The position numbers and the translations under genes were made by a program. DNA of 64,000 nt, from the NCBI GenBank assembly GCA_018818065.1, contig JAHISV010000011.1, forward strand, positions 124,001 through 188,000. The letters are read 5' to 3'. Shown one piece after another: positions 42,519-50,864 of this stretch. The notes below the pieces were generated by a model. That model worked only from the letters and a program-made list of their open reading frames with translations, was not told the DNA's origin and did not search any database. How positions within the stretch are numbered: the stretch's first letter is position 1; the number at the start of each line of letters is the position of its first letter. The DNA is from Bacteroidota bacterium (lineage in GTDB: Bacteria; Bacteroidota; Ignavibacteria; Ignavibacteriales; Melioribacteraceae).

Positions 42519-42544
42519 AATTTACCGCCGGTTCTTTGGCGGTA
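42519..42544. repeat. Small hairpin related to the TTTACCCGCC elements
   Basis: AATTTACCGCC with TACCGCC (42523-42529) pairing to GGCGGTA (42538-42544). It resembles the intergenic element near 48607-48630 (AATTTACCCGCC...GGGCGG). It follows the UPF0158 gene on the minus strand and may act as its transcript end, although no T-run follows. Confidence 0.45.
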
Positions 42545-42581: not shown

Positions 42582-43010
42582 TTAATGCACAATATACTCT
42601 ATTTGCTCTTTGACATACTCAATGTACTTCTCATTCTTAAATTGAAACCACTTCTCACGATATTCAGTCTCTGAATCAATGATGTCTTTAAAATTTCTAA
42701 AGGGCTTTGAAAGATCTAATCCCAGCTCCAATTTCTTTTTCAACTCTATATCTTCAATACTTTCCACAAAATATTCCATAACTCTAAACGACTCACTTGA
42801 ATCCATTTTCTCGAATTCAAAATACTGATCAAAATTCTCTTCAATTTCTTTTAGATCCTCATAAAGGAACTCATCATCAGCATAAAACAAATCATTTGTA
42901 TTTATTATACTCTTGATTTTATTTGTTACTTTGTTGATATAAACTTTCATCCCGCAGTCAAGATCTTCTGCGATTGATTTGATTTCATCATCTGTAAGAT
43001 TCATTTCCAT
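42582..43010 (-). CDS. UPF0158-like acidic protein
   Basis: Small, highly acidic soluble protein of about 142 residues. The opening MNLTDDEIKSIAEDLDCGMKV, the following strand VYINKVTNKIKSI, and the aromatic YREKWFQFKNEKYIEYV near the end match the general pattern of UPF0158 proteins, whose function is unknown. An AAGGA lies just upstream of two in-frame ATGs (43010 and 43004), so translation starts at one of these, and not at the TTG at 43022. The gene lies alone in the accessory region, with a hairpin after it. Some related proteins occur with mobile or cassette-like neighbours. Confidence 0.65.
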   Translation of the reverse strand: MEMNLTDDEIKSIAEDLDCGMKVYINKVTNKIKSIINTNDLFYADDEFLYEDLKEIEENFDQYFEFEKMDSSESFRVMEYFVESIEDIELKKKLELGLDLSKPFRNFKDIIDSETEYREKWFQFKNEKYIEYVKEQIEYIVH

Positions 43011-43134
43011 ATCATCCTTCAAATGTGTGTTAATAAATTAAATGTTCGCGAGTGATTTGTTTTGACTATCTCATCTCGCTCAGCTCCTATGCCAAAAAAG
43101 TAGTCTTTCTTATAACCCGCAGTTTACAAATTAT

Positions 43135-43333
43135 CTAACGCTCTCCGGTATCCTGCCAAATCAGTTTTTTATTTTTTCGTTCTGCAAAAAAATCTGAACC
43201 CCTTCCGTCACCTTGTCCGGTAATACCGCCATCAGGTGCGCAGATAATGTTACCATCCTTGTCGTAAAGAGTGCTGAACTGGTCACAGCATTGCGGCGGA
43301 ACATAATAAACCACTTCGCCCTGGAAAGTATAT
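43135..43333 (-). pseudogene. 3' fragment of a DUF6970-like lipoprotein gene
   Basis: Translating the minus strand gives the last ~65 residues of the lipoprotein encoded intact at 47749-48099: GEVVYYVPPQCCDQFSTLYD, then CAPDGGITGQGDGRGSDFF and KLIWQDTGER before a TAG at 43135-43137. The signal peptide and first half are missing. The frame is not open to any start upstream, because it runs straight into the stop codon of the cytochrome gene in another frame. By eye about four-fifths of the bases match the intact copy, so the two diverged some time ago. It lies at the downstream end of the cytochrome/BNR gene pair, and the intact copy lies at the upstream end. Confidence 0.85.
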
Positions 43334-47496: not shown

Positions 47497-47748
47497 ATCC
47501 TCCTTCTAATGTTTCATGTCAGAGTCAGTATGTTCAAGAGAGTATCGTAAAATCGCAAAGATCAGCAATAGTCAAGCTGATAGAATTGTATGATATATGT
47601 ATAAATATGTGAAGACAAGTCCCCGTCTTCAGGAAAATCGCCTGAGCAAAAGGAAAATACAAATTTTTAAACAAAGAAAAAAATATTGAAGTTGCCTTCT
47701 TAATAGTTTGGGTTAAAACTACTCTTACAAGAAAATATATATTATTCT
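47497..47748. other. Intergenic region, 252 bp, no supported gene
   Basis: This stretch lies between the start of the BNR gene (AAGGAGG close to its start) and the stop of the small lipoprotein gene. It is AT-rich and contains no repeat that I could match to the other intergenic elements. It presumably holds the promoter of the BNR/cytochrome pair. Confidence 0.5.
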
Positions 47749-48099
47749 CTATCGCTCTCTGTTGTCCTGCCAAATCAACTTTTCATTTTCACGTACTTCA
47801 AAAAAATCGCTGCATCTTCCATCGCCACTTCCGGTAATACCGCCATCAGGAGCGCAGATAACATTACCGTCCTTGTCGTAAAGTGTGCTGAATTGGTCGC
47901 AGCATTGCGGTGGAACATAATAAACTACTTCTCCCATGTAAGTATATTGCCAAATGCTTTGAGGAGGATTGCCGACCGGCTGAGTTTGAAATTCACTTAT
48001 CATGTCATTAATCCACTCCGGGTTTTCCGGCGTATTTACTTGTGAGCAACCACCAAATAGAATAATCAAACTTAACAGATATACTGCTATGTTTTTCAT
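47749..48099 (-). CDS. DUF6970-like small lipoprotein
   Basis: Exported lipoprotein of ~116 residues. The start is the ATG at 48099 (MKNIAVYLLSLIILFGGC), which gives an ideal lipobox with FGGC. An in-frame ATG 9 bp and another 39 bp upstream are less suitable, since AGGA lies 11 bases before this one. The C-terminal domain GEVVYYVPPQCCDQFSTLYD, then CAPDGGITGSGDGRCSDFF is a small Cys-containing domain of the DUF6970 type as I remember it, function unknown. A truncated copy lies at 43135-43333. Its stop codon is 252 bp from the BNR gene start. Confidence 0.8.
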   Translation of the reverse strand: MKNIAVYLLSLIILFGGCSQVNTPENPEWINDMISEFQTQPVGNPPQSIWQYTYMGEVVYYVPPQCCDQFSTLYDKDGNVICAPDGGITGSGDGRCSDFFEVRENEKLIWQDNRER

Positions 48100-48156
48100 T
48101 TCGCACATCTTCCTATACAAACTTATATTTATGGACAAAAGAATTCATGTAGTTTG

Positions 48157-48546
48157 TTATTTAATTATCTCCGCAATTCCAATTACATGCTGATCCAAAT
48201 CCAGAATGTACGCGACTTTATGTCCCCAATCTCTTTCCTGAGGTAAACTTAATACTTGTACATTTAAATCTACTGCTCGTTCCATGTATTTATTTACTTC
48301 GTCAACTACAATATATAATTCCGTTTTTGCTTTGACCTGCGCCGAAATTATAACTTCGATTTTATTCTCCAACAACTTTTCTATTCCACTACCAGGCATT
48401 AAACCCAAGATTGAATTTTCACATAATTGAAATTCTGTCATTCCGGGCGTATTTAATGTCGGCTTCTTATTCAGCAGATTAGAATAAAATTCTGTGCTTA
48501 ATTGTTGGTCTTTTACATATAAAATAAAATGCGCTTTGTTTATCAT
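48157..48546 (-). CDS. VOC/glyoxalase-superfamily protein
   Basis: Small cytoplasmic protein of 129 residues with two beta-alpha-beta-beta-beta modules. The N-terminus HFILYVKDQQLSTEFYSNLL and the C-terminal module ELYIVVDEVNKYMERAVDLN, then DWGHKVAYILDLDQHVIGIA fit the vicinal-oxygen-chelate fold (glyoxalase, bleomycin-resistance and dioxygenase relatives). The C-terminal His of GHKVAY is where such proteins often bind metal. The substrate is unknown. Its gene lies 18 bp from the DUF6970-like gene's ORF start and follows an attC-like element on its 5' side, so it could be the first gene of a cassette. Confidence 0.85.
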   Translation of the reverse strand: MINKAHFILYVKDQQLSTEFYSNLLNKKPTLNTPGMTEFQLCENSILGLMPGSGIEKLLENKIEVIISAQVKAKTELYIVVDEVNKYMERAVDLNVQVLSLPQERDWGHKVAYILDLDQHVIGIAEIIK

Positions 48547-48564
48547 TCAATAACCATAAAATTT

Positions 48565-48630
48565 CGTTAACAAGATGATGACAGGGTTTTTCGTAAATAC
48601 AGGCAGAATTTACCCGCCTTCTTGTTGGGC
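48565..48630 (-). repeat. attC-like element between the lipoprotein and VOC genes
   Basis: On the minus strand this reads GCCCAACAAGA ... TCTTGTTAACG. The left end GCCCAAC matches the RYYYAAC R'' box of integron attC sites, and AACAAGA/TCTTGTT form a 7-bp inverted repeat. The block AATTTACCCGCC (48607-48618, plus strand) also occurs at 50460-50471. It lies after one minus-strand gene and 19 bases before the next, as expected for a cassette boundary. The R' box is degenerate. Confidence 0.45.
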
Positions 48631-48675
48631 GGATCGGCCTGGCTCAGACTAATCCGCCTCAAATTTACTTCAGTA

Positions 48676-49119
48676 TTACTGCACTTTAACCATCTTAGTT
48701 ATATGTCCTATTGCACTAGGACTCGTACTGTCGATTATCCTTCCCCGACAGACGCTGCTGCTCAGTTCTAGTATCTCAATCTTATCCATTGTCCCCGGTC
48801 CGTTGGTGCCTGTCATGGTAAACTCTGTTCTTTCAGCGTTTATTGACCACTGTAGATTATCCGTAATCCAGTCCGAATTTGCTGTCGCTCTAATCTGCCA
48901 TGTCCCGTCTGCCAGATATTTTAATTGTGCCCCAACCTCTCCAACTTCCGTATCTGATGCTATTTGCCAGATACCCGTTGTAAGTAATTCTATTACTTCA
49001 TTAGTAGGATCATTGTTGTTGTCATTGTTGTTGTCATCGATGTTAGCATCGCTATTAACCTCACAGCCCCACGAGGCAAATAATATTACTATCAGTACTA
49101 AAAACCCTGCACGTTTCAT
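48676..49119 (-). CDS. Lipoprotein with Asp/Asn-rich linker and lipocalin-like domain
   Basis: Exported lipoprotein of 147 residues. The signal MKRAGFLVLIVILFASWGC has Cys19 as lipidation site. A low-complexity linker of Asp and Asn (DANIDDNNNDNNNDP) follows, coded by a short tandem repeat in the DNA. The C-terminal ~100 residues (GIWQIASDTEVGEVGAQLKY, ADGTWQIRATANSDWITDNL, GTMDKIEILELSSSVCRGRI) have the strand pattern of small lipocalin-like domains that are common in Bacteroidota lipoproteins. Function unknown. The gene has GGAGAGG upstream of the ATG and is flanked on its 3' side by the attC-like element at 48565-48630. Confidence 0.8.
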   Translation of the reverse strand: MKRAGFLVLIVILFASWGCEVNSDANIDDNNNDNNNDPTNEVIELLTTGIWQIASDTEVGEVGAQLKYLADGTWQIRATANSDWITDNLQWSINAERTEFTMTGTNGPGTMDKIEILELSSSVCRGRIIDSTSPSAIGHITKMVKVQ

Positions 49120-49375
49120 TTCCTCTCCTGCTATAATTGTGGAATTGTATTGTAATTTTATTAAGCCCCTGTTTACCCGCCATTGGTGTAGACATTTTGC
49201 AATTCAAACAGAGATTATGGTTGTTCTAAAATATAATAGTAAAAAATTAAATAACAGAGCAAATAAATTTTTGTAAGGACTACTTTCGTTATATTGTTTA
49301 CTCGGCTATGTTCCTGACGCACTTGTACGCCGTTATTTTTGGCAGGTTAAAGATGTTATCCAAAACATTTAAAAA
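49120..49375. other. Intergenic region, 256 bp, with degenerate cassette-like element
   Basis: The block GTTTACCCGCC at 49171-49181 repeats the core of the elements at 48607 and 50460. A pair CGGC/GCCG lies near 49300-49330, and AAATAAC/GTTATTT form a long-range inverted repeat (49250-49256 and 49331-49337). None gives a complete attC. No gene is supported, although the opposite strand of the lipoprotein gene has a 157-codon open frame that I regard as spurious. Confidence 0.4.
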
Positions 49376-49807
49376 TTATCTGCCAAATTGGTTTAGATGA
49401 TGATTCAAATGATGAACGACTAATCTTTCCCACCTGATTTTATCAATTTCACCTAAGTATGGATGAAATGAGAATATATAATTTTCATCGGTTTCTAAGA
49501 ATCTATTCAGGTGTTCAATTAATGTTTCTTTATCCTTCCCAACTTCAGTAGGTTTAGTTCCGCCACCGGCAATTTGATCTAATCCCTCAACAGTTGGAAC
49601 CGTTTCGTTTCTTCCTAACATCTCTTGTAATTTTACTAAATCAACATTTTGTCTTTTCAATCCTTCTATTTCACCAAACATCATTCTAAACTGATCACTG
49701 CAATGGCAAACCATTTGAGAAATATTCATTTGACCAAACTTAGCTTTATCATCTGCTCTAACTGCTAAAATACGATTTACGAATTCATCTCTTTGTTCAA
49801 TTGTCAT
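49376..49807 (-). CDS. DUF1569 (DinB-like) family protein
   Basis: Soluble protein of 143 residues with the DUF1569 pattern: FGQMNISQMVCHCSDQFRMM (metal-site His in the first helix) and the terminal WERLVVHHLNHHLNQFGR with a histidine cluster. HPYLGEIDKIRW is the conserved middle segment. DinB-like four-helix bundles bind a metal through three histidines; the biochemical role of this branch is unknown. The gene starts 10 bp after the stop of the membrane-protein gene upstream, so the two are probably co-transcribed. The gene stops just before a cassette-like intergenic region. Confidence 0.88.
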   Translation of the reverse strand: MTIEQRDEFVNRILAVRADDKAKFGQMNISQMVCHCSDQFRMMFGEIEGLKRQNVDLVKLQEMLGRNETVPTVEGLDQIAGGGTKPTEVGKDKETLIEHLNRFLETDENYIFSFHPYLGEIDKIRWERLVVHHLNHHLNQFGR

Positions 49808-49817
49808 ATAAACTCCT

Positions 49818-50378
49818 CTAAACTGCTGATAAAAATACTTCAGCTAATGCTTCAACAAAAAATAAAACGACGAATATTGAATGAAGACGATAATTCTTCC
49901 AAATCGAAAGAGAAATAAACATAAGAACTAATACTGTTGTGGGTAATAGGTTTAATAGGTCTATTGCATTGCTACTCATCGTTCCTACAAATATTTTTGT
50001 GAAAATTGAACTTATAAATACTCCACTCATCAATGCCCAGAAGTAACGATGCTTATTAAAATAAAATACTTTTAAGTCAATACCTTCTTCCGGAATAACA
50101 GACGGAAATACAGAAGAAACCAACAAATAGATTAAAACAAAAATATGTCCATAAAGAAAGAATGATAAGAAATTATTAAACTTAGTTGTGTCGTTTGCTA
50201 TCACCCACCAGTTATTAATTAACATAATAAAAATATACCAAGCTGTAAGTATCGGCAGCCAATGCCATTTTACTCTTTTTCTGGATCTTAAAAGTCTGTT
50301 AAAACCTGAAAATAAATCAGTAAACATTAGACCATAAATAATCGCAATAAGCGTTACTGCAACTTCATTCTGAGACAT
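49818..50378 (-). CDS. Integral membrane protein, unknown function
   Basis: Polytopic protein of 186 residues with five or six hydrophobic helices (near 7-25, 42-60, 72-92, 112-130, 138-155 and 163-183). The loop SGFNRLLRSRKRVKWHWLP and YFNKHRYFWALMSGVF are positively charged. I recognise no family motif. It has no signal peptide and no catalytic signature. It directly follows the attC-like element at 50411-50490 on its 5' side, with a 32-base leader, and is followed by the DUF1569 gene after 10 bp. Together these two could be one two-gene cassette. Confidence 0.7.
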   Translation of the reverse strand: MSQNEVAVTLIAIIYGLMFTDLFSGFNRLLRSRKRVKWHWLPILTAWYIFIMLINNWWVIANDTTKFNNFLSFFLYGHIFVLIYLLVSSVFPSVIPEEGIDLKVFYFNKHRYFWALMSGVFISSIFTKIFVGTMSSNAIDLLNLLPTTVLVLMFISLSIWKNYRLHSIFVVLFFVEALAEVFLSAV

Positions 50379-50410
50379 TAAATCACCTTAAAATTATAAT
50401 ATATACTAAG

Positions 50411-50490
50411 TACTATAACGGCGATGCAGTAAAACCGCTGGCACAGTGTTAGCATGCCAAATTTACCCGCCGTTTTGTTAGTAGGGCGTT
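50411..50490 (-). repeat. attC-like element upstream of the membrane-protein gene
   Basis: On the minus strand the unit starts with TACTAAC, followed by AAAACGGCG, and ends CGCCGTTATAGTA, so AACGGCG (50417-50423 on plus) and CGCCGTT (50468-50474 on plus) are inverted repeats, flanked by the TAAC/GTTA cores expected of attC R boxes. The middle holds a GGCA/TGCC stem. The length (~80 nt), position between two minus-strand genes and the short leader to the next ATG fit an integron cassette boundary. Confidence 0.5.
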
Positions 50491-50492
50491 GC

Positions 50493-50527
50493 AAAAAAAA
50501 ACTGTCACTCTGAGCTTGACTCAGAGT
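50493..50527 (-). terminator. Hairpin with T-run after the DUF4180-like fragment
   Basis: ACTCTGAG (50507-50514) and CTCAGAGT (50520-50527) form a perfect stem with a 5-nt loop. On the minus strand the T-run of nine (50493-50501) follows five bases after it. The core TGTCACTCTGAGCTTGA also resembles dispersed repeats seen in many genomes of this phylum. Confidence 0.55.
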
Positions 50528-50593
50528 CTAGAAAAAATAATCAAATCATATACTGAAACGAGTCTGCTACTGTAGTGGCAACAACTACATAAT

Positions 50594-50791
50594 TCAGCTA
50601 TTCATCAACATCTCTTTTGCTTTTGCTGCATCTGCCACAAAAAAGAATTGATTACCTCTGTTGCTCTCAATTATCAATGCCTGCAAACTTTTACTTTTAT
50701 ATTTTTCAAAATCTCCAACTATGGCAATTTTTAGTCTGTAGTTTATACACTTCTGTAATATCTCACCGGCTAATCCACTCTGAGTTTCCAT
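50594..50791 (-). CDS. DUF4180-like protein, N-terminally truncated
   Basis: Short open frame of 65 residues matching the C-terminal half of DUF4180: GLAGEILQKCINYRLKIAIVGDF, then SKSLQALIIESNRGNQFFFVAD. Full-length relatives have ~110-120 residues, with the N-terminal strand-helix part and an FFDL-like segment just before the TGLAGE equivalent; here that segment and everything before it are missing. The ATG at 50791 lies at the point where homology begins, and the 73 bp to the nuclease-helicase gene encode nothing similar. It may be a broken gene or a translated remnant. The family function is unknown. Confidence 0.7.
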   Translation of the reverse strand: METQSGLAGEILQKCINYRLKIAIVGDFEKYKSKSLQALIIESNRGNQFFFVADAAKAKEMLMNS

Positions 50792-50864
50792 CGTATTTAT
50801 TTGAATACATCCACATCATTTTTGATTTCCGTTTCCCTTCGTGTGACTAAGCTCTAAACCTTTG

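Follow-up and report, generated by a model that had tools for sequence, protein, structure and literature searches.

A probable remnant of a single integron cassette, with a degenerate attC site, in the genome of a Melioribacteraceae bacterium

A working attC site folds as a single-strand hairpin in which the integron integrase IntI cuts at G^TT, and a circular cassette enters or leaves. Groups of attC sites that stand without an integrase are called CALINs (clusters of attC sites lacking integron-integrases), and PMC8618304 traces them to off-target insertion, loss of intI or rearrangement. By default IntegronFinder 2.0 reports a CALIN from two attC sites on, and single sites can be true ones according to its description (PMC9024848); the name SALIN (single attC site lacking integron-integrase) is given to a CALIN with one attC site in PMC12690207. 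Complete integrons are mentioned for Chlorobi and Ignavibacteriae in PMC9024848, and a literature search for Melioribacter together with integron found no paper. Here we describe an attC-like element on the minus strand of a 64-kb window, the whole stretch of DNA that was analysed (positions 124001-188000 of contig C4 in genome G000, an assembly of 3.95 Mb in 16 contigs from what is probably a Melioribacteraceae bacterium of the class Ignavibacteria; coordinates without a prefix are those of the window, and L numbers denote the loci fetched). With a probability of about 0.74, what is left of one cassette lies in the window, namely a DUF4180 gene truncated at its 5′ end together with a decayed solitary attC site and no integrase, an arrangement that is SALIN-like. 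Exactly one attC site, itself degenerate, was found in the window and the 20 kb on either side of it, with no intI nearby. A single site makes no array, since a CALIN needs at least two attC sites close together, and the locus has no intI lying next to an attI site and an array as in a complete integron. As in the SALINs treated in PMC12690207 and PMC9024848, one attC site stands outside any array and intI is not adjacent; the window site differs in having no recognisable 5′ half and a truncated cassette gene, and the class is assigned here from our own profile and integrase searches. The genome and its relatives also share TIGR02249 IntI and attC arrays with the Ignavibacteria chromosomal integrons mentioned in PMC9024848, although the window is distant from intI, which is on a different contig.

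The element is recognised by its 3′ half at 50413-50445 (minus strand), which consists of an L′ arm, a spacer and an intact R′ box GTTATAG, and in which the predicted crossover G^TT would fall at 50417-50419. It scored 17.4 bits with a full-length profile of attC 3′ halves from the clade, the second-best place in the window reaching -2.9. The profile was built from 50 unique sequences of 12 loci and 10 genomes, our own genome being excluded; each of these sites had scored more than 23 bits in an earlier, noisier profile and had GTT at the right place, and on leaving out one locus at a time all 50 scored at least 14 bits, the lowest 16.4. Order-2 random sequence totalling 60 Mb gave no score of 14 or more, and when real DNA from partly redundant loci was scanned over 2.38 million positions, every score of at least 16 belonged to an attC site read from its context, the next being 7.9. 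Two siblings of the window site in loci fetched later, read as attC sites by their likeness, scored 15.7 bits (L165) and 9.5 bits (L168). When the element was compared with all fetched loci by blastn, its top match was the attC site in L165 (genome G017; 80% over 51 bp, E 4e-6), followed by an attC site of the same genome at C13:935249 (75% over 52 bp).

The position of the 3′ half relative to the genes is like that of the other attC sites of this genome. The DUF4180 gene (50594-50791, minus strand), likely the cassette gene of the site, ends with a stop 148 nt before the 3′ half, and the next open reading frame (ORF), a membrane protein gene at 49818-50378 on the same strand, starts 35 nt after it; elsewhere in the genome a stop lies 114-264 nt before the 3′ half at 23 of 25 sites, and at 15 of them an ORF begins 10-125 nt beyond it. 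The DUF4180 gene had been called a remnant in the original prediction, which had read the region from sequence as a possible integron cassette array without integrase, and this is borne out by its match to PF13788, of which the second half alone (positions 52-112 of 112, E 3.7e-23) is covered.

Several observations weigh against reading the element as an attC site. A local, sequence-only cmsearch with a model of the same 50 sequences placed 50413-50445 second among eight matches in the window with 8.6 bits (E 0.26), and the genome-wide search, which scored 150 of the 909 candidates from its first look, did not list it. Folding of the site as DNA was not significantly better than that of shuffles (z -1.4), and a hairpin at 50438-50460 is also terminator-like. 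Homologues of the DUF4180 gene, found in 12 of 295 genomes including our own, had an attC site nearby in 0 of 11 loci. No same-genus relative was found with hisG as synteny anchor, and hence no empty site for comparison. Taken with a second terminator-like hairpin at 50507-50527, the hairpin at 50438-50460 and the E value of the local search could mean that we are dealing with an ordinary terminator or repeat whose likeness to an attC 3′ half is fortuitous. We consider this very improbable, because the full-length score lies far beyond the tails of both random and real DNA and the homology to a relative's attC site extends over 51 bp. The local search gives no credit to a full-length match, and we have therefore given more weight to the full-length profile, though other readers may prefer to give it less.

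The 5′ half of the site, in contrast to its 3′ half, is no longer recognisable. A profile of clade 5′ halves, built from 48 of the 50 sites, reached at best -13.9 within 500 nt upstream of the window site and found no 5′ half above chance anywhere in the window (best 5.8); a 5′ half of at least 16 is present at 17 of the 25 other attC sites of the genome. The corresponding stretch at 50446-50493 (minus strand) has no canonical R″/L″ half; it contains a weak CGCC..GGCG palindrome and an inverted partner that matches imperfectly. Further upstream, in the span expected for the 5′ half, a terminator-like hairpin is followed by a T run (50507-50527, minus strand). We read the site as a decayed attC that has kept its 3′ half and has probably lost its 5′ half and its function. 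In principle, 50413-50493 could instead be an intact, short (about 80 nt) working attC with TTTGCAAC or CTACTAAC as its R″ box. The intact R′ box is compatible with this possibility, as is the inverted partner of the 3′ half, which lies within 120 nt, scores 13.4 and was equalled in 3 of 400 random stretches. However, clade 5′ halves sit a median of 163 nt upstream, and scores of 11.0 and 9.0 were obtained for the two candidate partners, where matched halves average 12.6 and mismatched ones 9.5. The classical attC model discussed below also finds nothing here, which is a weak point as it misses known clade sites too. An intact short site thus seems improbable to us, and a decayed site is the reading we retain.

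The clade sites with which the window element was compared were recognised from repeats of the form GGGCGGCGGGTTAGCGGCAACGCCGTTAGGC that, in several relatives, lie 3′ of intI on the same strand just ahead of ORF starts. A second conserved half, GCCTAACCAGCCGCTCAACCCGACCGC, begins upstream, the distance to the 3′ half being 163 nt at the median and 389 nt at most. The halves are complementary to each other and show co-variation: in 65 pairs, each with a recognised 5′ half, matched halves averaged 12.6 and mismatched halves 9.5, the best of 5000 random pairings averaging 10.3. The matched 3′ half was the best or tied best in 21 of the 65 pairs only, as would be expected given how many sites resemble one another. 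We identify them as attC sites whose loops are long. Cassettes in the clade are found on the 3′ side of intI and share its orientation, a layout that PMC3607928 describes for Treponema; this layout and the length of the sites can be seen in L080, L081, L082, L088, L097 and others, and for many of the clade intI genes a contig end is no more than about 600 bp away on the array side. A covariance model of 16 classical plasmid-integron attC sites (R2) found nothing in the window. In a control this model recovered sites of its own kind, including two in L129 that were outside its training set, but it spanned no known Ignavibacteria attC in nine clade loci at E values up to 1. Two weak matches in L097 (E 0.4 and 0.8) began in 5′ halves and ended before the 3′ halves, and one in L083 (E 0.02) did not coincide with a 3′ half. 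Since the classical model misses the attC sites of this clade, its silence on the window is uninformative. The attC covariance search proposed with the original prediction gave 50413-50445 no more than a chance-level score with the clade model, and found nothing with the classical one.

The search of the genome for intI, also proposed there, was successful. At C5:128274-129146 there is an integron integrase that matches TIGR02249 with 325 bits, the cut-off being 265, and the C-terminal remainder of the protein follows an insert; matches with E of 1e-40 or better are present in 25 of 58 genomes, our own included. The insert is a 288-bp element (L008:2306-2593; C5:129115-129402) that contains one GIY-YIG ORF of 86 amino acids and is bounded by inverted repeats of 11 bp, CCCGTGAGATA..TATCTCACGGG. 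A related element, with 74-77% protein identity and the same ends, sits at a different position of the gene in two intI copies of the relative G039 (L054, L056). The insert has the appearance of a very small mobile element that recurs in intI genes. No integrase match was found on contig C4, to which the window belongs; intI is on C5, and many attC clusters are present elsewhere in the genome.

Besides that of the window, 25 attC 3′ halves of at least 16 bits were counted in nine places, in regions taken around matches of the genome-wide search; this number is a lower bound. Five are on C2/C3, two on C5 beside intI, one at C5:629 kb, one on C6, three groups of four, three and three on C13, and groups of two and four on C15; two weak matches in L160 (12.8 and 9.4 bits) were left out of the counts. 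Contigs C2 and C3 overlap by 141 bases, and across them (C3 end, C2 start; L024:19534-20000 and L161:142-442) a cassette gene after an attC site encodes a protein of 255 amino acids with the N-terminal SAM-like domain of integron integrases followed by a TIR-like domain; in the part of the sequence that was read, the TIR match falls just below the cut-off of Pfam. No second 3′ half was detected in the 64-kb window or in C4:104001-124000 and C4:188001-208000.

It is most likely that the cassette would have entered the window through the chromosomal integron of the lineage or by off-target insertion. Loot et al., in Nat Microbiol in 2024, are said to have described off-target insertion of cassettes into attG sites, which would give solitary cassettes scattered over the chromosome. 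The attC site may then have decayed by point changes, and also through the gain of the terminator and of palindromic repeats. A more specific history, which we regard as unlikely though worth stating, is that the solitary site is one of about ten cassette places, three of them single attC sites, that IntI scattered outside the array, and that these were frozen when the GIY-YIG element with its terminal inverted repeats broke the integrase. Taken alone, the site is a small fossil; its value is that it drew attention to a chromosome in which the integrase gene is split and 26 or more attC 3′ halves are spread over about ten places. The attC sites of this genome are long and atypical, and the classical attC model does not find them. 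The decay of a chromosomal integron and the spread of cassettes outside its array thereby become open to study in the little-studied Ignavibacteriota.

The array proposed for 48.1-50.8 kb was based on five small genes on one strand, two attC elements and a block shared between them. The five genes are indeed all on the minus strand, small and functionally unrelated; a Pfam search of the window ORFs gave matches for the VOC/glyoxalase, DUF1569 and DUF4180 genes, and no Pfam family for the lipoprotein and membrane protein genes. The blocks are also present at their reported places on the plus strand, AATTTACCCGCC at 48607 and 50460, GTTTACCCGCC at 49171 and AATTTACCGCC at 42519. One of the two elements holds the attC 3′ half described above; the other, 48565-48630, does not behave as an attC. 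The 3′-half profile reached at best -16.5 on the minus strand of 48400-49300, and the element has a folding z-score of -1.0. It corresponds instead to a palindrome, CCGCCCAACAAGAAGGCGGG, at 48613-48632 (minus strand), of the form CCGCC-(9 nt)-GGCGGG, that is dispersed in the genome, with four copies at up to three mismatches and nine under a looser pattern. A second CCGCC..GGCGG palindrome (42525-42542; two in the window against 0.04 expected) accounts for the block at 42519, just after a UPF0158 gene, and the block at 49171 has neither a palindrome nor an attC score. The repeated block AATTTACCCGCC, which had suggested a family of attC sites, is either one arm of the dispersed palindrome or a copy of it that arose by chance.

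A real CALIN array could nevertheless have existed here if the attC sites after the DUF1569 and lipoprotein genes had become too degenerate for the profile. This possibility would fit the one-stranded, unrelated genes, the 25 or more real attC sites elsewhere in the genome and the nearby UPF0158 gene, which is a cassette gene in relatives. It would also fit the TTTACCCGCC blocks, of which three are found in the window against 0.10 expected (a number reached by 1 of 100 shuffles), all in intergenic gaps. However, neither a second attC half nor a 5′ half above chance was found by profile, the shared block belongs to the dispersed palindrome, and the genes flanking the attC site, DUF4180 and membrane protein, are not cassettes at the loci of relatives that were examined. 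The membrane protein gene is a rare accessory gene with homologues in 14 of 395 genomes, our own included, and an attC site adjoined them in 0 of 18 loci, although in distant families our 3′-half profile may miss other attC types. With one attC site, its 5′ half decayed, a block that is a palindrome and homologues of the flanking genes that lack attC sites, the array is not supported and we hold it to be quite unlikely. A partial form of the integron interpretation survives, because a single 3′ half is positioned like that of a cassette in a genome with intI and attC clusters; the observations behind it were likewise confirmed in part. The other small genes are best described as ordinary accessory genes.

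The palindrome often sits in the loops of attC sites, five of its nine copies being upstream of a 3′ half on the same strand. The other four are in the window, upstream of intI, after a gene on C13 and beside a CRISPR (clustered regularly interspaced short palindromic repeats) array on C14, which weakens the palindrome as an attC-specific feature. The last of these copies, CCGCC..GGCGGGCAGG, directly adjoins the apparent CRISPR repeat array (L186, about 1500-1900; C14:4792). Two further candidates were set aside. GGCGGGTAAA was rejected as an attC marker, with six copies in the genome against three for the reversed control and three of the six in the window; a fourth copy on C4, at 116158, has no attC context. 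A scan for YAAC..GTTR palindromes over 42-51.5 kb was too noisy, coding DNA scoring as high as both proposed elements.

Among the neighbouring genes, no match to the VOC, lipoprotein, DUF1569 and DUF6970 genes was found in the fetched loci, the whole genomes of the relatives not having been searched for them, and a tblastn search of plasmids with the membrane protein gave one weak match in Salinibacter. The UPF0158 gene (42582-43022, minus strand), which lies outside the coordinates of the proposed array, has homologues in 15 of 116 genomes, our own included. An attC site lies within 360 nt upstream of the homologue in 5 of 17 loci from other genomes (one of these sites scoring 13.4), and two loci have attC sites on either side of it. 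The gene in the window has no attC remaining next to it, and, from its position in relatives, it is possibly an old cassette gene that lost its site. Adjoining it is one copy of a duplicated 204-bp stretch (43130-43333 and 47744-47947, 82% identical), which occurs once as the 3′ portion of the DUF6970 gene and once as a partial copy next to the UPF0158 gene.

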